In this document: positions 4,840-22,121 of the stretch, in pieces
Layout of the letters: each line of letters opens with the position of its first letter
Numbering within the stretch: the first letter of the stretch is position 1
Virus record (IMG/VR): IMGVR_UViG_3300035698_017728
Location: 1 to 22,121 of that record
Origin: a virus
Length of the DNA: 22,121 nt
Strand: one strand, 5' to 3'
Notes under the pieces: generated by a model
Told to the model about the DNA's origin: nothing
Database searches by the model: none
Seen by the model: only the letters and a program-made list of their open reading frames with translations
Program-made: the position numbers and the translations under genes

Positions 4840-6678
4840 ATGAATCTATTCTCTATAGGTAGCGGGTTAATTGATAAGCCTAGAAGAACAAGAATAAAAA
4901 CATCTAGAAGACCAATAATAACATCCAAGGTGGGCTCTGCCGGAGTTGTGTATGGGGCCTTGGGAAATACTGTAAGCAGAAGTAGTTTTGAAAAGGCTGA
5001 ATACAATCTTGGTGAAATATCTAAAGTATTGGATATTGAAGCTTATGTTAGACAAGCCTTTGATAAACATGTAGAAATGTGCCTTAAAGAGGGGTATGAG
5101 TTAAGTTCTAGAAATGAAAAGGCTACTGTTTATATAAAGAAAAGACTTAGAGAAATGTCAGAGGCTTCTGCGGTAACATTTGATATGATTATTAGAAGTA
5201 TAACTCAGAATATGGTGGCATATTCTAATTCTTTTATTGTTAAGGTTAGAGATGCAAGAAGGTCGTCGGGAAATCCAATAATGAGAACTGCTGGTGAGAT
5301 TTTGCCTCCAGTAGCTGCATATTTTCCGTTAGATCCTACGTCAGTCCAAATAAAAAGGAATATGCATGGTAAGGTTTTGCGATACCTGCAAAAGATTCCA
5401 GGTAATCCTAGGGCACCAGAGTTTCGACCAGAGGATATGGTACATATATATTATGATAGAAAAGAGGGTTTTGCTTTTGGGACACCTTATTCGATCCCGG
5501 TTCTGGATGATATAAGATCGTTAAGGAGACTAGAAGAAAGTATAGAAATGCTTATGAATCAACATCTATTCCCACTGTTTCAATATACTGTTGGAACTGA
5601 AGATAATCCCGCTGAAATGTATGATGATGGTACCACTGAAGTTGATTACATTAAAGAGCAAATAGAAAATATGCCCACAGAAGGAAGTATCGTAACTCCA
5701 GAGAGACATGATATAAAGGCTATTGGAGCAGAAGGAAAAGCATTAGAGGTTTCTAAATATTTAGAATATTTTGAGAAACGTGTTCTTGCTGGCTTAGGGA
5801 TTTCAGAGATAGCCTTAGGTAGGGGCGGTACGGCCAATAGAAGTACTGCAACTGTAATAGATAAGATGATGCAGGATAGATGCAAAGACTTTCAAGATGT
5901 GATGGAAGGTTTTATAAATGAGTTTATACTTAAAGAATTGCTTTATGAAGGTGGTTTCATAATAGATGAAACGGAAGACAATTTTGTTAAGTTGAAGTTT
6001 AAAGAAATAGATATTGATACGATGTTGAAGTTTGAAAATCATTCTGTGTATAAGTATGAGCATGATGCAATTACAGAAACAGAATTAAGAGAGTTGCTTG
6101 GTAAGGATCCGATAAGCGAAGAGCAGCGCGGCGATATGTACTTTGAGAAGATAACAAAGCCTAAGGCTATTATATTGGCAGTTGATGAACCATATACGGC
6201 TGAAGCTAAGGCCAATGGTGCAATCAAAAAGGTATCAAAGGAAGAAAAGAAAAAAAGGGAAACCAGCAATAGAGAAAAACCAACTAACCAACACGGTACA
6301 AAGCCTGCTAAAACACGATCCAAACAAGATGTGTCAGATAATATAGAAAGAATTTTAGCACATCTATGGTACCTTACCCAATTAGACGTTGTAGATCTAG
6401 TGAGTGACTCGGATAATTTGAGCGAAATGAAGCTAGAAAAATTAAAACCTATAGTGAATATAACGTATGATGATATTATTTCTAGATTATCTGGTTTTGA
6501 AATAGACCATAGCTTATTAGATTTTGGCATCAAGGATATATTGAATGATTTGGGTGATTACATTTGTGTTATTGCAAGAAAGATAAAAAAGAGAGATGAA
6601 GTTATTAGTAAAATACCTGGAGTTTTTGGAGCCCTAAGATATAGGCTTAGAGAATTATCAGAGAAAATAATTAAATAG
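4840..6678 (+). CDS. Portal protein
   Basis: The dodecameric ring at one head vertex through which DNA enters and leaves, and onto which the neck assembles. The 612-residue sequence shows the usual portal pattern: an N-terminal clip/wing part, the segment EFRPEDMVHIYYDR followed by FGTPYSIPVLDDIRSLRRLEE (about residues 198-235), then the stem/crown region with GLGISEIALGRG and a helix that binds neighbouring subunits (about 320-370), ending in a TETELRELLGKDPIS segment near 420-435. Residues about 455-510 form a Lys/Glu-rich linker, and a further helical domain of about 100 residues follows, which is longer than many portals and could contact the internal core. The following small gene's AGGAGG overlaps its TAG stop, so translation is tightly coupled. 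Confidence 0.9.
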   Translation: MNLFSIGSGLIDKPRRTRIKTSRRPIITSKVGSAGVVYGALGNTVSRSSFEKAEYNLGEISKVLDIEAYVRQAFDKHVEMCLKEGYELSSRNEKATVYIKKRLREMSEASAVTFDMIIRSITQNMVAYSNSFIVKVRDARRSSGNPIMRTAGEILPPVAAYFPLDPTSVQIKRNMHGKVLRYLQKIPGNPRAPEFRPEDMVHIYYDRKEGFAFGTPYSIPVLDDIRSLRRLEESIEMLMNQHLFPLFQYTVGTEDNPAEMYDDGTTEVDYIKEQIENMPTEGSIVTPERHDIKAIGAEGKALEVSKYLEYFEKRVLAGLGISEIALGRGGTANRSTATVIDKMMQDRCKDFQDVMEGFINEFILKELLYEGGFIIDETEDNFVKLKFKEIDIDTMLKFENHSVYKYEHDAITETELRELLGKDPISEEQRGDMYFEKITKPKAIILAVDEPYTAEAKANGAIKKVSKEEKKKRETSNREKPTNQHGTKPAKTRSKQDVSDNIERILAHLWYLTQLDVVDLVSDSDNLSEMKLEKLKPIVNITYDDIISRLSGFEIDHSLLDFGIKDILNDLGDYICVIARKIKKRDEVISKIPGVFGALRYRLRELSEKIIK

Positions 6679-7568: not shown

Positions 7569-7617
7569 TAATACGTGAGTAAGTTTTACAATAATTAGGG
7601 CTAACTAGGAGATAATT

Positions 7618-9126
7618 ATGGCTAAACAATTAGAAATATATGATACTTTTCCAATTAAAGTGGCAATGAACAAAGATAAGAAAAGTGTTATAATGTCTGA
7701 TGCAGATGGTATTAGAAAAGATTATAGTCTTGTTTGTGAGGTGGACGCCACGCATTCTGGAACACTTATTAATAATAGGGTTTATCCCCCACAATCAATG
7801 AAAAAGGGTATAAAAACATGGACTTCTCCATATAAGAAACCTGTTTTGACTAACCATGATGATGGTCAGGATCCAATAGGGAGAGTAATGAAAGCTAAGT
7901 ATGTGAAGACTCCCAAGGCTATGGAGTCGGATGAGTATAAACCTGTACTGAAAAAAAGTGACGGATATGGCTATCAACAGTTAACTTTAAAAATAACAGA
8001 TGCAACAGCAATACAGAAGATACTTGATGGTAGATATGAAACTGTATCGGTAAGAATGTCTACTGATCATGCTTTTTGTTCTGTTTGTAATGCTGATTGG
8101 AGCACAGAAGGCCCTTGTGAACATACTCCCGGTCAGTTTTATGATAAAAAATTGGCATATATTACGACTGGCGATCTATCTTATAAGGAGATGTCTTTTG
8201 TTAATATTCCTGCCGATGAATATGCTGGTGTAAAAGAAGCAATATTAACAGAAAATAAAGATGCTTTTTTAAGTGCTACAGAACTATCTATATATGCTAA
8301 TAATTCAGAAGAGAAAGTTTTTTCTGATTTAAGATCTGCTGATGATTTTAATTTGTATAATACTTTAAATGGTGAAATTGAAGAAGAAGATGATATCGTG
8401 TTACATCTTCTTGATAACGCTGGTAAAATACAAAAAGCCCATGACAAGGAGGATGAAGTGAAATTAGAAGATTTGACCAAAAGCCAACTAGGAGAAATAA
8501 AAGCAGTTCAAGAACTCATTACAGAGGGAGCGAAGAAAGAAGTAGAAGCGGCTTCTGTAAAAGCGTCTGAAGCTTGTAGTATAAAGGTTGAAGAGGCAAA
8601 GACTAGTTGTCAAGAAGAAAAAGATAATTTAAAATCGGATTTAGCGGCATGTTCTAAGGTAAGAAATGATCTTAACGTTGCTAATGCTGGGCTAGAGAAA
8701 GAGAAGAAAGACCTTCTTGAAAAAAATAAACAAGCAGCTAATGAAGTTGTAAAGAAGGATGAAGATAGAAAGAGGGTTTTGGATGAAAATATTAAATTGA
8801 ATTCAGACCTACATAAGATGGTAGCAGAGAGATTGTATGATCTGAAAAAGACTCTTCGTAAGCCAGATGTTGCGGACATTAAGACCCCTGATGAACGTAG
8901 CAAGAAAGTAGAAGAACTTTCTCAGAGAAGCGTGGACTCTCTCAAGGATCAAATTGTTGATCTCCTCTTAGAGCACGAGACACTATTAACAACTAACTAC
9001 TTTGGAAAAAAAATTAGCAATCCTGGAGCCGCTCCTTCTGACGAGACCAATGAAGTTGACTCAGAAAAGGCCCCTAAAAAAGAAGGTAAGAAGGAAACGC
9101 TAAATAGACTTTTCTCGAAGAGTTAA
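7618..9126 (+). CDS. Prohead protease fused to a coiled-coil scaffold
   Basis: Residues about 30-215 form a prohead maturation protease: CEVDATHSGTLINNRVYPP, then His80 in PVLTNHDDGQDPIGRV, Ser144 in YETVSVRMSTD, and the closing strand EMSFVNIPADEYAG. His80 and Ser144 are the likely catalytic pair of the S78/S80-type fold. Just after the Ser comes C154xxC157...C167xH169, a probable zinc-binding insert. Residues about 275-430 are a long, charged coiled coil, the expected scaffold that guides capsid assembly and is then digested. The 502-residue length fits a protease plus scaffold in one chain. An internal in-frame GTG at 8458 with an excellent ribosome binding site could make the scaffold alone. 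AGGAG precedes the main ATG. Confidence 0.88.
   Translation: MAKQLEIYDTFPIKVAMNKDKKSVIMSDADGIRKDYSLVCEVDATHSGTLINNRVYPPQSMKKGIKTWTSPYKKPVLTNHDDGQDPIGRVMKAKYVKTPKAMESDEYKPVLKKSDGYGYQQLTLKITDATAIQKILDGRYETVSVRMSTDHAFCSVCNADWSTEGPCEHTPGQFYDKKLAYITTGDLSYKEMSFVNIPADEYAGVKEAILTENKDAFLSATELSIYANNSEEKVFSDLRSADDFNLYNTLNGEIEEEDDIVLHLLDNAGKIQKAHDKEDEVKLEDLTKSQLGEIKAVQELITEGAKKEVEAASVKASEACSIKVEEAKTSCQEEKDNLKSDLAACSKVRNDLNVANAGLEKEKKDLLEKNKQAANEVVKKDEDRKRVLDENIKLNSDLHKMVAERLYDLKKTLRKPDVADIKTPDERSKKVEELSQRSVDSLKDQIVDLLLEHETLLTTNYFGKKISNPGAAPSDETNEVDSEKAPKKEGKKETLNRLFSKS
8446..8460 (+). promoter_or_regulatory. Internal ribosome binding site and GTG start for free scaffold
   Basis: AAGGAGG at 8446-8452, a full anti-Shine-Dalgarno match, lies five bases before an in-frame GTG at 8458-8460. 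The codon is residue 281 of the protease-scaffold protein, exactly where the protease part has ended and the coiled coil begins. Initiation here would make a 222-residue scaffold ending at 9126. Nested scaffold starts are established in phage lambda (C and Nu3). The out-of-frame ATG at 8453 gives only two codons. Confidence 0.6.
8458..9126 (+). CDS. Nested scaffolding protein from internal GTG start
   Basis: This 222-residue product would start with MKLEDLTKSQLGEI and comprise the charged coiled coil followed by a flexible, acidic and basic C-terminus (ending NRLFSKS), which is the classical make-up of a capsid scaffold. Scaffold is usually needed in much larger amounts than protease, and an internal start gives that ratio from one message. 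The evidence is the position of a strong ribosome binding site in frame at the domain boundary. A chance occurrence of an AAG-GAG-Gxx codon run in a Lys/Glu-rich segment is the main alternative. Confidence 0.5.
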   Translation: MKLEDLTKSQLGEIKAVQELITEGAKKEVEAASVKASEACSIKVEEAKTSCQEEKDNLKSDLAACSKVRNDLNVANAGLEKEKKDLLEKNKQAANEVVKKDEDRKRVLDENIKLNSDLHKMVAERLYDLKKTLRKPDVADIKTPDERSKKVEELSQRSVDSLKDQIVDLLLEHETLLTTNYFGKKISNPGAAPSDETNEVDSEKAPKKEGKKETLNRLFSKS

Positions 9127-9132
9127 GCAAGC

Positions 9133-9153
9133 TAATAAAAACAAAAAGGAGGA
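9133..9153 (+). repeat. Leader repeat copy 1 (ribosome binding site region)
   Basis: A 21-base A-rich sequence whose last 20 bases are AATAAAAACAAAAAGGAGGA. It is identical to 14850-14870. Both copies sit just before a structural gene's ATG (here the 265-residue head protein), so this is probably a translation-enhancing leader. Confidence 0.7.
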
Positions 9154-9160
9154 TATATAA

Positions 9161-9958
9161 ATGGCTAATAGAATTCCTAGAGGCTATGAGCGTAATAGTA
9201 ACCTAAAGAGGGAATTTTTAGAAATATCGCAAGGTGAAAGACCAGCTCTTGAATTAAAGCCAGCACAGTATTTGCCGGTTAAAAGGCAGGATCAGTATTT
9301 GAACGATTGGGTTGTAATATCTGCAGGTACTATTGTGGCAGTAGATCCTAGTGGAGATCTTGTATGGGCGAATGGTGCTGTTGCAACAACTATTACATAT
9401 ACAGCTGATGATATCGGTCTTACTGTTGAGGTCAATACAAATGGCCATGATTCATATGTAACGACAGCTGGAGCTTCTGCTAGTGGTATGTTTGCAAATA
9501 AGCCAATTGGAGTCGCACCGTATGATTATTATCAAAATCTTAATCAAGGTTATGACGTTGCTAGTCCTGGTGGTTTAACGAAATACAATAACTATCAAGT
9601 GCAAGATAAAGTTACTATTCTTTGCGATTACTTGATTGAATTACCGGTTAAAACAGCTGTTACAGCAGCTGGTGCTAATGATTCATCCGGTGTTATTATA
9701 GCTGGTGACCTTGTTCAGGCAAATACGAACGGTGCATTTGTTAAATGGAATGAAGGTTCAAACCCAGTAGAGCAGGTAGTTGGAAGATGTATACATAGAA
9801 GCGCTGTAAGCGTAAAAGATAATCTAGATAAAGTACAAACTGTTCCAGGTCTTGGTTTATCTGGTACTGATACTAGTGGTTATCCACAGCACTTGTATGA
9901 TTATGACAACGATGACGCATATGGTTCTAAAGTATTAATCCAGCTCATGGTAGCGTAG
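9161..9958 (+). CDS. Probable head decoration or minor capsid protein
   Basis: The 265-residue protein lies directly before the major capsid gene. It starts with a basic segment (MANRIPRGYERNSNLKREFL), then becomes rich in Gly, Ala, Thr, Val and Asn with many short predicted strands (VVISAGTIVAVDPSGDLVW and DLVQANTNGAFVKW are typical). The pattern of 'value, initial state, no longer pristine' strands is common in capsid-stabilising decoration proteins of the lambda gpD/capsid-cement type, but it is longer than gpD (about 110 residues) and I see no diagnostic motif. It is preceded by a very strong AGGAGG and the A-rich leader repeat, pointing to high expression. A minor capsid or other surface role is the alternative. 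Confidence 0.65.
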   Translation: MANRIPRGYERNSNLKREFLEISQGERPALELKPAQYLPVKRQDQYLNDWVVISAGTIVAVDPSGDLVWANGAVATTITYTADDIGLTVEVNTNGHDSYVTTAGASASGMFANKPIGVAPYDYYQNLNQGYDVASPGGLTKYNNYQVQDKVTILCDYLIELPVKTAVTAAGANDSSGVIIAGDLVQANTNGAFVKWNEGSNPVEQVVGRCIHRSAVSVKDNLDKVQTVPGLGLSGTDTSGYPQHLYDYDNDDAYGSKVLIQLMVA

Positions 9959-10003: not shown

Positions 10004-11317
10004 ATGTCTGAAGAAAAATTGGTGGTTTCTGATGAATTAATTGGTAGCATCACTGCCAAGGTTTCTGAAAAAATAGGGAAGGAAGAGATTGCCAGAACCG
10101 AGAAAAGGGAATTTTCAGATAATACATTGCAAGATAAATATGAAAATACCCAGAAAATATGGACGAATAATGGTTTTGAGCATATAGAAGATCAATTTGA
10201 TCCTAGGAAGAAAGATCAGAAAATTGGTTATAAGGATTTGGTTGATGCACTTTCTACCCCTGATGCTTCGATACTTATTGGTAGGGTTGTATCCAATGTA
10301 GTAAAAGAAGCTATGGAACCTTTGTTAGTGGGTACCAGCTTATTGCATACCATCAGGTTTTCTGCCGGACAACAGATAACATTTCCAGCAGCTGGAGCTT
10401 TCACAGCTGAAGATATCCCAGAAGGCGGAGAGTACCCGGAGAGAAAGCTAGAAGTAGCCGGCACGGTAACCGCGTTTATTGGAAAGTCTGGTGTTAAGGT
10501 CAGAATAACTGATGAGATGCTTAGGTATTCGCAATACGATGTAATGAGTATGCATATTAAAGCTGCAGGTCGAGCTTTAGCAAGGCATAAAGAAACAAAG
10601 ATATTCAACATGATTAACAACTTGGGTAATACTATTTTTGATAATAACGTAGCTAATACGCAAACATCTGGCAGAGATAATGCCGGTAATGGTAATGGTA
10701 CTATAACATTAGATGATTTGTTAGTTATGTACGCAAAGATAGTGCAACAGGGTTTTGTTCCAAACTCTCTTTTAATGAGTCCTCTTGGATGGTTGATTTT
10801 CGCAAGAGACCCGATACTAAGAGCGTTTGGTTTTGCAAATGGAGGCCCAATATTTTCTCCGATGCAGGGTAAAGCTGGTTTAGCAAGAAGCTGGTATTCT
10901 GGAGGAATGAATACAGGTCCTACAGCTCAAGCACAAAACATTAGCACTACTTCTGCAAATGTTCCTAATTTATTCCCGGCACCTTTAAGGATTATTGTAA
11001 GCCCGTTCTGTTCTTATACAGCTGCTTCCGGTGCTACACCGGCAAAAACTAACATTATCATGGCTGATAGCAATGAGCTTGGTATATTAGTTGTTGATGA
11101 AGATGTAACGAACGAGGAATGGGATGATCCTAATAGGGATATTAGGGCAATTAAATTTAGAGAAAGATATGGTCTTGGTATTTTGAACGAAGGAAACGCA
11201 ATAGCAGTAGCTAAGAATGTTGATATCGAGAAAGCATACGCTCTTGACGACCTATTAACTTGGGACGCACAGGGTGGAGCTTTACCGTCAATCAATCAGG
11301 CTGGCGTAACTGTGTAA
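10004..11317 (+). CDS. Major capsid protein, HK97 fold
   Basis: The shell protein of the head. The N-terminal arm (about 1-95) is charged and may be removed by the prohead protease. The HK97-type features follow: an E-loop/P-domain segment FSAGQQITFPAAGAFTAEDI with PEGGEYPERKLEV (about 120-150), KSGVKVRITDEMLRYSQYDV leading into the long spine helix (about 165-205), then the A-domain with FVPNSLLMSPLGWLIFARDP (about 247-266) and the closing DEDVTNEEWDDPNRDIRAIKFRER region, which resembles the capsid proteins of many myoviruses and siphoviruses. AGGAGG at about 9989 precedes the ATG. Residues 1-95 contain no obvious unique cleavage site that I can name. A stable hairpin follows the gene. Confidence 0.9.
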   Translation: MSEEKLVVSDELIGSITAKVSEKIGKEEIARTEKREFSDNTLQDKYENTQKIWTNNGFEHIEDQFDPRKKDQKIGYKDLVDALSTPDASILIGRVVSNVVKEAMEPLLVGTSLLHTIRFSAGQQITFPAAGAFTAEDIPEGGEYPERKLEVAGTVTAFIGKSGVKVRITDEMLRYSQYDVMSMHIKAAGRALARHKETKIFNMINNLGNTIFDNNVANTQTSGRDNAGNGNGTITLDDLLVMYAKIVQQGFVPNSLLMSPLGWLIFARDPILRAFGFANGGPIFSPMQGKAGLARSWYSGGMNTGPTAQAQNISTTSANVPNLFPAPLRIIVSPFCSYTAASGATPAKTNIIMADSNELGILVVDEDVTNEEWDDPNRDIRAIKFRERYGLGILNEGNAIAVAKNVDIEKAYALDDLLTWDAQGGALPSINQAGVTV

Positions 11318-16263: not shown

Positions 16264-16875
16264 ATGCCAGTTAGCGAATATACGAGAAGTTATAATTCTT
16301 TCTCCGGCGTTGATATAAAAGCAACGTTCGGTGGAAAAGTTATTGGAGAACTTCAGGGTGTGTCCTATTCTGTGACAAGGGAAAAAGCCCCGATATATAC
16401 TATGGGATCAGCTGATCCTCGTTCTTTTTCTAGAGGAAAAAGAGGAATAGCTGGAACCGTAATATTCACAGTATTTGACAGGAGTGCTCTGTTAGAAATT
16501 TTTAGAAGTATGGAAGATAGATCTGGCTGGTTCTTTGCTCACGATACTGATGTTCAAAAACATACAGCAGAAGAAGCAAAAGGTAGTCAGGTTTGGCAAG
16601 ATGTAAATACAGATAACTCATGGCAACCACCATGGTATCCTGACCAAATTCCGCCGTTTGATATTGTTTTAACTGCGGCAAATGAATATGGTCAAGTAGC
16701 GCAAATGTCTATAAGGGGTGTAGAAATTCTAAATGAAGGATCTGGAATGTCGATAGATGACATTGTAACCGAGGAAACTATGACTTTTGTCGCTCGCGAG
16801 ATCCTACCTTGGAAAGCATCTTACTCTGATGTATCATCTACTAAGACTTGGGCTGGAACCGGTGGAACTGCTTAA
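16264..16875 (+). CDS. Tail tube protein (paralogue A)
   Basis: The gene directly after the sheath is the expected place for the tail tube. The 203-residue protein has SFSGVDIKATFGGKVIGELQ followed by SYSVTREKAPIYTMGSADPR and SRGKRGIAGTVIFTVFD (about 12-75), then the C-terminal block IPPFDIVLTAANEYGQ, MSIRGVEILNEGSGMSIDDI and EETMTFVAREI (about 130-190). These alternating strands are typical of tube subunits that form stacked rings. The same blocks are found in the next gene, and weakly in the third. GGAG precedes the ATG. A very stable hairpin follows the stop, as after the capsid gene. Being shortest and followed by that hairpin, it is my best candidate for the main tube protein. Confidence 0.8.
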   Translation: MPVSEYTRSYNSFSGVDIKATFGGKVIGELQGVSYSVTREKAPIYTMGSADPRSFSRGKRGIAGTVIFTVFDRSALLEIFRSMEDRSGWFFAHDTDVQKHTAEEAKGSQVWQDVNTDNSWQPPWYPDQIPPFDIVLTAANEYGQVAQMSIRGVEILNEGSGMSIDDIVTEETMTFVAREILPWKASYSDVSSTKTWAGTGGTA

Positions 16876-16886
16876 TAAATAATTGA

Positions 16887-16918
16887 CTAGGGTCTTCGGA
16901 TTGCTCCGTAGGCCCTAG
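16887..16918 (+). promoter_or_regulatory. Very stable hairpin after tail tube gene A, no U-tract
   Basis: CTAGGGTCTTCGGA (16887-16900) pairs with TCCGTAGGCCCTAG (16905-16918) with a single U-U mismatch and one G-U, around a TTGC loop. No run of T follows (CGCAACATGG), so it is not a typical terminator. Its place mirrors the hairpin after the capsid gene; mRNA stabilisation or partial termination is the likely role. Confidence 0.65.
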
Positions 16919-16935
16919 CGCAACATGGGAGATAT

Positions 16936-17715
16936 ATGGGATTTCTTACTGGCTGGGAAAACGATATAAATGAGTTAATCCATACCCCTTATTGGTGGCC
17001 CCTAGGGGATAAGGGATATTCTAAAAATCAGACAGAGAATGAAAAGAAAGCCAGAAGAAGGGCTCAAGAGGGAGTGCAAAACTATTCTAGCAATAGTTAT
17101 GGATTCTTTAATTCGTTTTCTGGGGCTGATATAATAGCTTATATACACATCCCACCACAGGAAATAAGCGGTAACGATATAGCAGGGCCACATTCTAAAA
17201 CAGAAGCAGTGGTTGGTGTTTTAGGAACGTTACAAACTATAAGTTATAGTACTTTTAGAGATGTCCAGCCCGTAAGAGCATTAGGTAAGACTTATCCATT
17301 ATCATACACTAGGGGACCTAGAACAATAGCAGGCACAATGATTTGGACTACGCTTGATCAATATGTTTTAGCGGAAGCATTAAAATATTCCTACGTAGAT
17401 AGCTATGATCCCACCACCATCTTAATAGACCAAATCCCTCCATTTAATATCATAATCACTTTCAACAATGAATATGGCGATGTTGCAACTATGGGAATAT
17501 ATGGGATAAGAATGGTGAACGAAGGCAGTACCTTTAGTATAGATGATATGATAACTGAGCAAACCAATACTTATGTAGCTTCTGATATAGATATGTTGCA
17601 CAAGGGCCCACCATTTAGAAAGAGTAAAACACTTCCAGGCCTTAGGACTGGTACGGATGTTTTGCTAAAAGAAGCTAGGAAAAGAATGAGCTCACACAGG
17701 AGTACCTTACAATAA
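16936..17715 (+). CDS. Tail tube-like protein (paralogue B)
   Basis: A clear relative of the preceding gene. Shared blocks are FNSFSGADI versus YNSFSGVDI; TISYSTFRDVQPVRALGKTYPLSYTRG versus the VSYSVTREKAPIYTMG...SFSRG block; GPRTIAGTMIWT versus GKRGIAGTVIFT; and DQIPPFNIIITFNNEYGDVA followed by GIRMVNEGSTFSIDDMITEQ versus the matching block in A. It is longer (259 residues), with about 55 extra N-terminal residues, an insert after SGADI (IPPQEISGNDIAGPHSKTEA) and a basic C-terminal tail. It is likely a specialised tube subunit at an end of the tail (initiator or completion ring). GGGAG lies just before the ATG, and its stop overlaps the next start (TAATG). Confidence 0.75.
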   Translation: MGFLTGWENDINELIHTPYWWPLGDKGYSKNQTENEKKARRRAQEGVQNYSSNSYGFFNSFSGADIIAYIHIPPQEISGNDIAGPHSKTEAVVGVLGTLQTISYSTFRDVQPVRALGKTYPLSYTRGPRTIAGTMIWTTLDQYVLAEALKYSYVDSYDPTTILIDQIPPFNIIITFNNEYGDVATMGIYGIRMVNEGSTFSIDDMITEQTNTYVASDIDMLHKGPPFRKSKTLPGLRTGTDVLLKEARKRMSSHRSTLQ

Positions 17716-18479
17716 TGGAATTAGGTAACAGTAATTATTATGAAAAAGGGTCTGTAAATAAGTTTGATTTTTATTCTGGGTCTCAAATTACCATATGGTT
17801 TGGTGATATTATGGTAGATGATATAGGCGCGATACAGTGGAATAGGACCCAAAATAAACGTCCTATCTACGGGTATGCTTCGCAACAGTTTGATGCTGTT
17901 GCAAATGGTACCATAATGATTCAAGGGAATTTTATTATAAATTTTAGACAGCGTGGTTATCTTTCAGTAATCCTTAATGAAATAAAATATCTGTACAAAA
18001 GGTACACTGGGAGCACAAAAGATGATGAAATAGAAAGCCCAAACATGGATCGCTGGGGTACAGTTAGAGAGTTGGTTGGTTTACATTTAAGAAATGGAAC
18101 ATTTGGTCCAGGCACAACAGCTGAAATAAAAAATATAGGCGATAGTCCTGACTTCATGCATCTAGCAAAAGTGTATGAAGATGTTATATGGGGAGAAAAG
18201 GATAAGGGAAGTTATCCAGAATACAACCAAATATGGCCAGCAGATGTTCAGCAATCAAGAAATATTCCAGATGGTTTTAATATACTAATAACTTATGGAG
18301 ATACTAGCGGGAACGAAGCCAGGACACTTAATGATCAACTTCAATCCACAACAAAATCACTTGTTGGAGTACATTTGACTGGCGAATCACAGATAATACA
18401 GGTTGGAGGACAACCCACTCAAGAACAGTATGATTTTATAGCAAGAGGTACTGATGAATATATCGGTACTACAACGTAA
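17715..18479 (+). CDS. Tail tube-like protein (paralogue C, divergent)
   Basis: A more distant relative in the same series. FDFYSGSQITIWFGDIMVDD aligns with the NSFSGVDIKATFGGKVIGEL block of A; GAIQWNRTQNKRPIYGYASQ aligns with the VSYSVTREKAPIYTMGSA block; NGTIMIQGNFIINF aligns with the IAGTVIFTVF block; and IPDGFNILITYGD with the IPPFNIIITF block, followed by SLVGVHLTGESQIIQ where A and B have their MSIRGVEILNEGS-type strand. The 254-residue length includes a charged insertion around 90-190. A position as an end-of-tail or baseplate-proximal tube subunit is plausible. AGGAG at 17698-17702 lies 12 bases before the ATG; translational coupling through the overlapping stop is likely. Confidence 0.65.
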   Translation: MELGNSNYYEKGSVNKFDFYSGSQITIWFGDIMVDDIGAIQWNRTQNKRPIYGYASQQFDAVANGTIMIQGNFIINFRQRGYLSVILNEIKYLYKRYTGSTKDDEIESPNMDRWGTVRELVGLHLRNGTFGPGTTAEIKNIGDSPDFMHLAKVYEDVIWGEKDKGSYPEYNQIWPADVQQSRNIPDGFNILITYGDTSGNEARTLNDQLQSTTKSLVGVHLTGESQIIQVGGQPTQEQYDFIARGTDEYIGTTT

Positions 18480-18493
18480 GGAGGGGTAGAAAT

Positions 18494-18838
18494 ATGCAAG
18501 AGAAAGATAATCCATTAGAAATAGTTAACGGTCCGACTCAAGAAAAGATTAATGAATGGAAGGTTAAATTTGGTGATATATTTGTTACTAGCTTAGGCAA
18601 CGATAAGTATATTTATAGACCATTGAAGAGATTTGAATACAAACAAATTCTCCAGACAGCTCAAAACCCAGAAAATAAAGCATTCGCTGAGGAAAAGGTT
18701 GCAGAGAAATGTATTATTTGGCCTAAATTAGACGCTGCTAAATTTTCTATGTTAAAAGCTGGCACAATATCTACTTTGGTTGATTTGGTAATGGTAGCTT
18801 CTGATTTTGGCGTTAGCGAAGAACCAAGAAAGTTGTAA
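18494..18838 (+). CDS. Tail assembly chaperone 1
   Basis: A short protein (114 residues) between tube genes and the giant gene, where tail assembly chaperones lie. It has KINEWKVKFGDIFVTSLGND, KYIYRPLKRFEYKQIL and a helical C-terminal half (EEKVAEKCIIWPKLDAAKFS). These features match the next protein: RWKNKYKNIYCVKVRDN, FYIFRLLTRGEYLNIF and LEECLLHP. Such proteins keep the tape measure soluble while the tail is built and are not in the finished virion. AAGGAGGGG is placed 9 bases before the ATG. The stop TAA at 18836-18838 is in the same frame as the next gene. Confidence 0.7.
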   Translation: MQEKDNPLEIVNGPTQEKINEWKVKFGDIFVTSLGNDKYIYRPLKRFEYKQILQTAQNPENKAFAEEKVAEKCIIWPKLDAAKFSMLKAGTISTLVDLVMVASDFGVSEEPRKL

Positions 18839-18844
18839 CATGAA

Positions 18845-19450
18845 ATGCAAGAAATATATGAATACATAAAATCTCATTCTTTATACGATGATCTTTTAAG
18901 ATGGAAAAATAAATATAAGAATATATATTGCGTAAAAGTCAGAGATAATTTTTACATATTCCGGCTTTTAACGAGAGGTGAATACCTAAATATATTTAAT
19001 TTACAACAGCACTCTTCTTACAGTATTGACGATATGGTATTGGAAGAATGTTTATTGCATCCTTTATATAAAAAAGAATGGATGGACAATCGATTAGCTG
19101 GAGAGATAGATTTTTTATCCAAATCTGTTGTAAAGGTTTCTGGTTTTTCCAGAGAAAATGAGTTATTAAATGATGTGGAGCAAGAAAGATCTAAGATAGA
19201 AAGATTGGATAATCAAATATTAGTATTGATTTGTAAAGCGTTTCCTCATCTAAACCTAGAGGATGTCGATAATATGGACTATCCTACATTACTTCGATAT
19301 CTAACAATAGCAGAAACCATTTTAGACGTAAAATTAACCATAGAAAAACCACAAAAACAAGGAAAAATAGATTTTGATAAAGAAAACTACAAGTTAACTG
19401 GTAGTAGTAAATCTATTTTTAATACTAAAAAACCAAAAGAGGAGATGTAA
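18845..19450 (+). CDS. Tail assembly chaperone 2 (extended paralogue)
   Basis: This 201-residue protein repeats the chaperone pattern of its neighbour in residues about 12-100, then adds a charged helical region (ENELLNDVEQERSKIERLDN, about 103-122), a compact helical segment (AFPHLNLEDVDNMDYPTLLR) and a Lys-rich tail. In lambda the second chaperone is made as a G-T fusion by a -1 frameshift; here the second gene lies in the same frame as the first, two codons after the first's TAA, so a frameshift cannot fuse them and only readthrough or reinitiation could. The start has no strong ribosome binding site (weak AAGAAAG 12 bases upstream), so coupling to the first gene is likely. Confidence 0.7.
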   Translation: MQEIYEYIKSHSLYDDLLRWKNKYKNIYCVKVRDNFYIFRLLTRGEYLNIFNLQQHSSYSIDDMVLEECLLHPLYKKEWMDNRLAGEIDFLSKSVVKVSGFSRENELLNDVEQERSKIERLDNQILVLICKAFPHLNLEDVDNMDYPTLLRYLTIAETILDVKLTIEKPQKQGKIDFDKENYKLTGSSKSIFNTKKPKEEM

Positions 19451-19488: not shown

Positions 19489-22121
19489 ATGCCATTTAAT
19501 TCTGATCGTTATTTAAATAATACAGAAGATACCATAGCCTCTCAGAAGAGAATTGAGAGGGATGGAAGTGGTGTGTATGGTGCAGCGGTATTGGCTGGCA
19601 GTGTTGCAGCATTTGTATTGTTACGTCGTAAAATAGCACTTACTAGATTATTCTCTAAACAGATTAAGAGTATTGGTCAAGCAGGAGAAGGGCTTTCAAA
19701 GCATATCTTGAGAGCTGAGATGGATACTACAAAGCCTTTTTTATCTAAGATTGCAGATGTAACACGAAATTGGTGGGAGGCAAGTAAAAAAGCATTACCA
19801 ACTGCAAGGGAACAATATGGTCTAGCTGTAAGTAGATACCAACAATATGAGAGTACTCTAAGTCGCGGAGCATCACGTCTCAATTTGTCAATGATGCCCA
19901 CCGTTGAAGAGGCTGGAATAAGTGGTTGGAATACGTTTTTAAAAGGTCCAGCAGTTGCAGCAATTGCGCCTCGTGCTACTATGGGTATTCCTGGACGTAA
20001 TTTAACATCTGGCGGATATGGTGGAATAGCCATTGGTAAGAATTTTTACAGAATAGGCGCTAAGGGAGATACCCGTAAAGTATTTAAGAATATAGAATTA
20101 AATATCCCAGCTATTGGCGGAAGAATGGAAGAATTGCGACTGGGATTAGTAGAACATGGTAAGGGGTATAGAACTACAGAAGAATTTATAGAGAAAGCTT
20201 TGATTCCTCGTGGAACACTTCAGGAGGAATCCAGGAGAATGGTTGCAGAGAAGTATTTAAAGGGTCTTGGTGTTACGCGTGTTGGTAGCAGCATAAAGGA
20301 AATGCTCCCAATAGAGGATGCCACTTATAAGCAAGTAATAGAAACTTTTAGTAAAATAAAAGAACAAAGACCAGACCTTTCTCATATAATTACTCCTGGA
20401 AAATTGTTCAAGAAAGAAGCTGGGGCTATCCAAACTTCTTATAAAAAAGCCCTAGAAACACTAGTAGCACAAGAGATAAAGAAACCAACGGTAAATGCAG
20501 CATACAAAGCCTATAGAGCACAGGTTGGAATTGGGATAGGGGAAATGTATGCGAGGCATGGTGCTGGAGGATGGCCCGTAGTCTCACCTAAATGGTGGAC
20601 AAAGCATATAGGAAAAGCCTTAGAATCTGGCTATAAACATCCTACAACTGGCAGATTTATGCCTACACAAGCAAGGGTATATGCTAAACCGGGGTTGCGT
20701 CCTTCCACTGTAGCTGGTATGTGGAGTCGCGGGGTTAAGGGGGAATTCTATGCAACTCAAGCTGGAAGAAGAGTTCAAAGAGCCCTTTTAAGTATTTCAG
20801 AAGGAACTTTTTATAGAGCAGGAGAAGAAATACTTGGTCTTGGAATAACAACTAGAAGAAATGTTGCTACAGATTTTATAAGCAATCTATTGAAGGCTCA
20901 TCCTCAATCTTGGACTGGATATGCAGTAAGAAGACATTTTGGTATGGCAAGGTTGGTTGGGTATGGTTTTGGTGCTTATCATACCTTTAGGTTTGTCAAT
21001 TACCTTGCAAGGCAAGCAACTGGTGGATGGGGCGTTACTGATGTTGCTGGTAAAATGTATACCAGTGGAAGAGAGCTTCAACAAAACTTATTAAATCAAG
21101 TTGGAGCCGTAAATACATTCAGGGAGATAGAAAAAGCTTTCCCTGGTACCATAAAAAGTCCAGTTTCGCATGCTATGAGAATGACTGCGCCAGTCTGGAT
21201 GGCTGCAGCTGGCTCACATGGAGTCGGTCCATCCAAAGGTTTGGAGTTGTTTGGTAAAAAAATAATACCAGGATTTAAAGCTTTTGGTTTTAAGGGTGCG
21301 GGAAGAAAGGGCGGACTAATTGGTCTTGCTCTTGGAATAGCTACGGCATTAATTACGTGGGGAGATATTACCCAAAGTCCAGAAGAACTACATAAGATAT
21401 TTACCGGAGAACAGGATGTACCAATAAGAAAAGGAAGATACTGGCCGTTTGGTAAGACACCCTTCTTTGGTGGCAAAGCAATGTATTGGCGTCCACATTG
21501 GTATCCTATGATGAGAAGCCGCTATAGGCATAGTGGTGACTTATGGGAATCAGAAACAGAAGAGATGGCCCAGGGTACTCCATTTTCTCCAATATTAGCT
21601 CCATTTTTGCAAGGAAGAATGTGGGATCCATATTATTGGGAAAAGAAGCATTACGCCGATAGGCCTTACCCAATGACAGGCGAGTTGTTTGAACCGACGA
21701 TGCCATTCGCATGGCTTGGTAATATGACCATCGGTCAACTTGTAAAGCCTCAAAAACCAATGCATCGGGAATATTGGGGAACACCGCAAGAAGAACCAGC
21801 GGATAGGGGAATCATTCCTTTTGCAGCAGGGTCCTTAGGGATGCGCCCATTGGCTCCAGAAGGTATGTTACCTACTGTTACGCCTGATTCTACCAATTGG
21901 AATGCTGGTATGGCAATGTATACCCTAACTGAGCAAATGGGTTTACGTGGTTTTATGCTTCAACAATTTGCAGAGGGTTTAACTGGTAGACCTGATTTTC
22001 TTCCAGAAGGACCAGTAGTTGAAAGTTCTCGTAAAGCAACTGGTTATGAAAGGGAATATTGGGGATTAAACATAGGTGATCCAGGTGGTTTTACTGAATT
22101 ATTTAGAAGGGTTCTTCCACA
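19489..22121 (+). CDS. Giant virion protein in tape-measure position (3' end outside window)
   Basis: An open frame of 877 codons with no stop to the window edge, so the protein is partial. It lies just after the tail assembly chaperones, the position of the tape measure, which sets tail length and is ejected with the DNA. A hydrophobic segment lies near the N-terminus (GVYGAAVLAGSVAAFVLL, about 29-46) and another at about 608-624 (GLIGLALGIATALITW). It is Gly/Ala/Arg-rich and basic. A striking region at about 643-680 (DVPIRKGRYWPFGKTPFFGG, then YWRPHWYP) is full of Trp, Tyr, Pro and His, unusual for the helical tape measures; I recall similar segments in large uncharacterised phage proteins. 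AGGTG a few bases before ATG 19489 is only a moderate ribosome binding site. Confidence 0.75.
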   Translation, partial: MPFNSDRYLNNTEDTIASQKRIERDGSGVYGAAVLAGSVAAFVLLRRKIALTRLFSKQIKSIGQAGEGLSKHILRAEMDTTKPFLSKIADVTRNWWEASKKALPTAREQYGLAVSRYQQYESTLSRGASRLNLSMMPTVEEAGISGWNTFLKGPAVAAIAPRATMGIPGRNLTSGGYGGIAIGKNFYRIGAKGDTRKVFKNIELNIPAIGGRMEELRLGLVEHGKGYRTTEEFIEKALIPRGTLQEESRRMVAEKYLKGLGVTRVGSSIKEMLPIEDATYKQVIETFSKIKEQRPDLSHIITPGKLFKKEAGAIQTSYKKALETLVAQEIKKPTVNAAYKAYRAQVGIGIGEMYARHGAGGWPVVSPKWWTKHIGKALESGYKHPTTGRFMPTQARVYAKPGLRPSTVAGMWSRGVKGEFYATQAGRRVQRALLSISEGTFYRAGEEILGLGITTRRNVATDFISNLLKAHPQSWTGYAVRRHFGMARLVGYGFGAYHTFRFVNYLARQATGGWGVTDVAGKMYTSGRELQQNLLNQVGAVNTFREIEKAFPGTIKSPVSHAMRMTAPVWMAAAGSHGVGPSKGLELFGKKIIPGFKAFGFKGAGRKGGLIGLALGIATALITWGDITQSPEELHKIFTGEQDVPIRKGRYWPFGKTPFFGGKAMYWRPHWYPMMRSRYRHSGDLWESETEEMAQGTPFSPILAPFLQGRMWDPYYWEKKHYADRPYPMTGELFEPTMPFAWLGNMTIGQLVKPQKPMHREYWGTPQEEPADRGIIPFAAGSLGMRPLAPEGMLPTVTPDSTNWNAGMAMYTLTEQMGLRGFMLQQFAEGLTGRPDFLPEGPVVESSRKATGYEREYWGLNIGDPGGFTELFRRVLP

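Follow-up and report, generated by a model that had tools for sequence, protein, structure and literature searches.

Does the 502-aa open reading frame at positions 7618–9126 encode one protein or two? The frame lies on the + strand of a 22,121-base stretch of viral DNA (the window), and a sequence-only reading had proposed that a second ribosome binding site and start codon inside it give rise to a free scaffold. From the comparisons of sequence described below, it is well supported that this frame is a real nested protease/scaffold gene pair, laid out like lambda C/Nu3 and Mu I/Z.

Genome context of the protease-scaffold gene

The window was found to contain the head and tail module of a myovirus, with genes for a terminase (1160), the portal protein (4840–6678, + strand), the protease-scaffold (7618), a 265-aa protein (9161), the major capsid protein (10004–11317, + strand) and a sheath protein (14878). 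The portal and the capsid protein, the latter of the HK97 fold family and the presumed partner of the scaffold, were assigned by family matches. The nearest cultured phages were Moorella phage MTATph1, Bacillus phage KLEB27-3 and Acinetobacter phage ME3. The full-length product of 7618–9126 was assigned as a head maturation protease-scaffold fusion, based on matches to phrog_18299 (head maturation protease, E=7e-4) and phrog_16951 (E=4e-13), an AlphaFold2 model and a fold match.

Several other genes of the window were recorded. The 265-aa protein between the protease-scaffold and capsid genes (9161–9958) had no family match and is perhaps, by its position, a head decoration protein. An HNH endonuclease ORF (592–921; Pfam HNH, E=7e-8) lies upstream of the large terminase. 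After the sheath gene, three consecutive genes of 203, 259 and 254 aa (16264–18479) are alike in sequence pattern and gave no Pfam match; they are perhaps tail tube paralogues. Two adjacent ORFs of 114 and 201 aa (18494–19450), which have similar N-terminal parts and precede a large ORF at 19489, are possible tail assembly chaperones; the 201-aa ORF has almost no Shine-Dalgarno (SD) sequence (−0.4).

A probable internal ribosome binding site in frame with the protease

The internal SD sequence AAGGAGG (8446–8452, + strand) is followed by the spacer ATGAA (8453–8457) and a GTG codon (8458–8460), all exact in the sequence, which confirmed the arrangement proposed earlier of a start codon five bases after the motif. 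The GTG is in frame with the ATG at 7618, (8458−7618)/3 being 280, and thus corresponds to residue 281 of the full-length product. The inner frame is 222 aa long, as had been predicted, and shares its stop codon (9124–9126) with the full-length frame.

The + strand of the window carries seven copies of AAGGAGG and the other strand none. Six copies are situated just upstream of gene starts (9161, 10004, 11395, 13309, 14878 and 18494), and the seventh is the internal one. The energy of the duplex with the anti-SD sequence was −11.4 for the internal site, compared to −7.3 for the weaker ribosome binding region of the full-length gene itself (AGGAG, 7603–7617, + strand). In all 14 close homologues for which this was computed, the internal SD was likewise stronger than the gene's own. 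The RNA accessibility of the internal site did not differ from that of synonymous shuffles.

Two further candidate signals were considered and rejected. The out-of-frame ATG at 8453 (ATG AAG TGA), a potential coupling device, was absent as a conserved feature in relatives. An internal promoter, as in herpesviruses, was not indicated, with promoter-like matches in 8150–9250 not above those in shuffles (4 vs 2.6).

Codon conservation in the close clade

Scans of viral contigs yielded a close clade of 17 sequences, pairwise more than 10% different at the nucleotide level and with a mean nucleotide identity of 61%. At the border, all 17 carried AAG GAG GA; the rest of the 5-nt spacer varied, and the codon after it was GTG (14 sequences) or ATG (L005, L030 and L060). 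The three homologues with ATG have a changed protein, KEDQMAK instead of KEDEVK, and the 5-nt spacing is unchanged.

Synonymous changes were then counted on the tree. Among 107 residue-invariant columns (Met and Trp left out), Lys277 and Glu278 were the only two with no synonymous change at all, compared to 2–6 changes at the other invariant Lys columns and 3–6 at the other invariant Glu columns. The Val281 column similarly showed 0 changes, against 1–8 at the other Val columns, and the windows of highest codon identity in the whole gene were those at the internal site. The expectation that AGGAGG and the start codon would be conserved beyond the need for Lys and Glu codons was therefore borne out, with AAG and GAG invariant in 17/17; synonymous changes that destroy the site, which the sequence-only reading had named as evidence against itself, were found in no close-clade homologue. 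Its remark that the surrounding residues (HDKEDEVKLED) are not otherwise a conserved protease motif needs correction. Close relatives do share these residues (K-E-[ED]-x-V/M-K-x-x-x-L-T-K), but their codons vary less than the amino acids alone would require.

A strong site was defined as a duplex energy of −9 or lower together with an in-frame ATG or GTG 35–100 residues after the protease core. Such a site was present in the linker of 17/17 close homologues, where 1.9 were expected from synonymous shuffles. Counted over the three frames, strong sites were distributed 18/4/0, showing a bias to the reading frame of the gene. Collectively, the sequence comparisons indicate that selection maintains the internal ribosome binding site, its conservation beyond the coding need being a direct observation.

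Sites in the wider family

A wider set of 26 relatives, about 33–45% identical across the protease core, was then inspected. A strong in-frame linker site was present in 14 of these, with 3.3 expected from synonymous shuffles, and the frame distribution was again biased (18/8/1). The remaining long ORFs of these loci, 52,550 codons in all, contained 6 such sites, or ~0.012 per linker-sized stretch of 105 codons. From this background, ~0.5 strong linker sites were expected in the close and wider sets, and 31 were observed. The residues that encode the site vary among branches (EGGKKHM, EEVIDSM, IKEENSM and RGGYSM), suggesting that selection acts on the RNA or nucleotide signal and not on the protein.

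Two cultured phages carry the site. In Bacillus phage KLEB27-3 it consists of GAGGAGG, an 8-nt spacer and GTG at residue 256, and in gp53 of Mycobacterium phage Phrappuccino of AAGGAGG, a 6-nt spacer and ATG at residue 321. Weaker but recognizable sites were seen in six relatives (L072, L074, L075, L083, L085 and L105). Inspection of the relatives' linkers revealed no convincing site in L017, L096, Moorella phage MTATph1 (L023) or Acinetobacter phage ME3 (L099), indicating that the family can do without it. A scan of genome contigs with the close-clade alignment gave no matches. Many distant relatives (L007, L070, L073, L074, L077, L085 and L097) have an extra segment (LP-x-S-x-FCGPGRSFPVPDCAHVTAARRLIGR...) between the protease and scaffold parts, for which L077 gave a weak DUF6582 match.

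There is perhaps an even chance that the nested start is ancient and widely distributed in this lineage of herpes-protease-like head proteases, and that it occurs in Bacillus phages and those of related hosts, in a mycobacteriophage and in numerous phages from the environment. It would have been kept while the surrounding residues turned over and lost or replaced by other schemes in some branches. It would then be a bacterial counterpart of herpesvirus UL26/UL26.5, with a ribosome binding site in the place of a second transcript.

Predicted structures of the protease and scaffold parts

The AlphaFold2 model of the full-length protein, built from a 33-sequence alignment, had pLDDT values below 50 for most of residues 276–313 (the stretch 276–308), followed by a 116-residue helix (297–412) and a short C-terminal helix (491–498). 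The model places the internal start in a flexible linker, with the beta-rich domain before it and the helical part after it. This agrees with the earlier proposal of a start at the border of the protease and the coiled-coil scaffold, residue 281 being in the disordered linker.

The protease domain (7618–8250, + strand) was also modelled alone, from 41 sequences, with a pTM of 0.73. Searched against BFVD, this model matched the prohead protease A0A6J5NJ62 best (E=7e-18) and many other viral prohead proteases. Against the PDB, the best match was the human cytomegalovirus (HCMV) protease, a weak one (E 0.04, prob 0.84, TM 0.32–0.34). In the 41 sequences, Ser144 was invariant and His80 at least 90% conserved; from this near-invariance and the fold, the two are probably the catalytic residues. 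The protease of lambda, C, is of the S49 type (SppA-like), and the Mu protease belongs to a family different from that of the window protease. No S49 match was found in Pfam for the window protein. Judged by its modelled fold, the protease differs in kind from lambda C (S49/ClpP-like); its matches are to prohead proteases and, at a weak score, to herpesvirus proteases.

The protease domain also contains a conserved C-x2-C-x9-C-x-H motif at window positions 8077–8124 (residues 154–169). Its residues C154, C157, C167 and H169 were invariant or at least 90% conserved in the 41 sequences, and the motif was seen also in KLEB27-3, ME3 and Phrappuccino. Its sequence suggests a zinc site, carried as an insertion within the protease.

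The nested gene (8458–9126, + strand), defined by its ORF, conservation and the AlphaFold2 model, would encode a flexible N-terminus, the long helix and a conserved C-terminal ...ETLNRLFSKS helix. The predicted inner product is scaffold-like, in that it is mainly helical with a conserved C-terminal helix. A family-profile sequence search of the PDB gave coiled-coil type matches only. The proposed scaffold role is drawn from the helix prediction and the gene position, not from likeness to a characterized scaffold.

Proposed mechanism and alternative explanations

It is highly probable that this one gene yields two proteins with a common C-terminus, a fusion in modest amounts and a more abundant free scaffold, which co-assemble in the prohead before cleavage. 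Ribosomes starting at ATG 7618 would produce the protease-scaffold fusion in modest amounts, and those starting at GTG 8458, with its stronger SD, would produce larger amounts of the 222-aa scaffold alone. Scaffold and capsid protein would together build a prohead, which the fusion would join through its identical scaffold tail, such that a few proteases are carried inside. The protease would then cleave the scaffold and itself, allowing DNA entry. The site and its position at the domain border are directly observed. The production of both proteins and their proportions are inferred, and the steps of assembly are modelled on those of lambda, Mu and the herpesviruses. Counting against the nested-gene reading are the mostly GTG start codon, the unremarkable RNA accessibility of the site and the relatives in which no site was recognized.

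The Lys-Glu-Glu and Val codons of a linker rich in Lys and Glu could mimic a ribosome binding site by chance. The window gene taken alone was only weakly significant against synonymous shuffles (p ~0.03–0.05), because the residues themselves permit the site. However, chance does not account for the lack of synonymous changes at codons 277 and 278 over 17 divergent sequences, for the independent encodings in distant relatives or for the excess of strong linker sites over the background ORFs, and it is the least probable of the explanations considered. Slightly less improbable, though still very unlikely, is an SD-like pause site, which would hold elongating ribosomes at the domain border and give the protease time to fold ahead of coiled-coil synthesis, with no second protein started. 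Its position at the border would fit such a role; a pause, however, needs no start codon, yet GTG or ATG occurs at a fixed 5-nt spacing in 17/17, including exchanges of GTG to ATG, and the strong sites are mostly in frame.

The third explanation follows the scheme of P2 gpO, in which a single full-length protease-scaffold is made and free scaffold arises solely by self-cleavage, the internal start being minor or unused. Some relatives have no site, such that cleavage alone can suffice in this family, but the scheme leaves the selection on the site and start codon unexplained and was given the same slight probability as the pause site. Release by cleavage and a nested start can coexist, and cleavage may be the sole scheme in the relatives without a site.

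If the nested-gene reading is correct, this is an example of the nested in-frame genes that genome annotation misses: in this lineage of mostly uncultured myoviruses, the scaffold gene is listed merely as part of the protease or as a hypothetical protein. The codon-level test provides a simple means to find such genes. The cultured carriers of the site, KLEB27-3 and Phrappuccino (the latter propagated on M. smegmatis mc2 155), allow the proposal to be tested directly.

Comparison with known systems

The overlap of lambda C and Nu3 was reported by Shaw & Murialdo 1980 (cited in PMC8508860). There too, the scaffold is made from an in-frame start within the head protease gene and the C-terminus is in common. 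The analogy drawn with lambda therefore holds for the layout and fails for the protease, the window protein having no S49 match and a prohead-protease fold with weak likeness to herpesvirus proteases. In Mu I/Z and in Mu-like Pseudomonas phages such as PaMx73, an in-frame start with an SD lies within the protease gene (PMC4378225). For PaMx73, the proposed start is a Val codon (Val177), as GTG is here, with the SD ACGAGGA and a 9-nt spacer, and the site was read in the Mu-like group (PMC4378225). The window site is the stronger (AAGGAGG), and its conservation was tested here at the codon level over a clade.

On the genome map of Bacillus thuringiensis phage 0305phi8-36, one gene is labelled 'protease with nested scaffold gene' (PMC2147016); as far as the map label tells, the layout within the head module is the same, together with a head decoration gene. 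The portal of that phage was compared with HF1 gp94 in the same source (PMC2147016). The window portal also matches HF1, and for ME3, which is related to the window, the annotation notes a portal and capsid in common with 0305phi8-36. By the portal, 0305phi8-36 and the window seem to share a broad lineage.

In the herpesviruses, UL26 encodes a protease with a C-terminal scaffold, and the shorter in-frame gene UL26.5 encodes the scaffold alone, the two being expressed from separate 3'-coterminal transcripts (PMC4498786). The logic of a protease fusion plus scaffold alone is shared with the window, as is, weakly, the fold of the HCMV protease, whereas the window would use an internal ribosome binding site in place of separate transcripts. 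In its portal, the haloarchaeal virus HRTV-8 is distantly similar to the window; it has a 253-aa protease gene followed by a separate acidic 143-aa gene, another gene and the capsid gene, the protease and acidic gene being in the corresponding order. By this likeness in gene order, separate genes and a nested start may be two ways of setting the same ratio. As nested scaffold starts are already known from lambda and Mu, by proposal from PaMx73 and by map label from 0305phi8-36, the window case joins a known kind. The conservation evidence for a nested scaffold start is unusually clear here.
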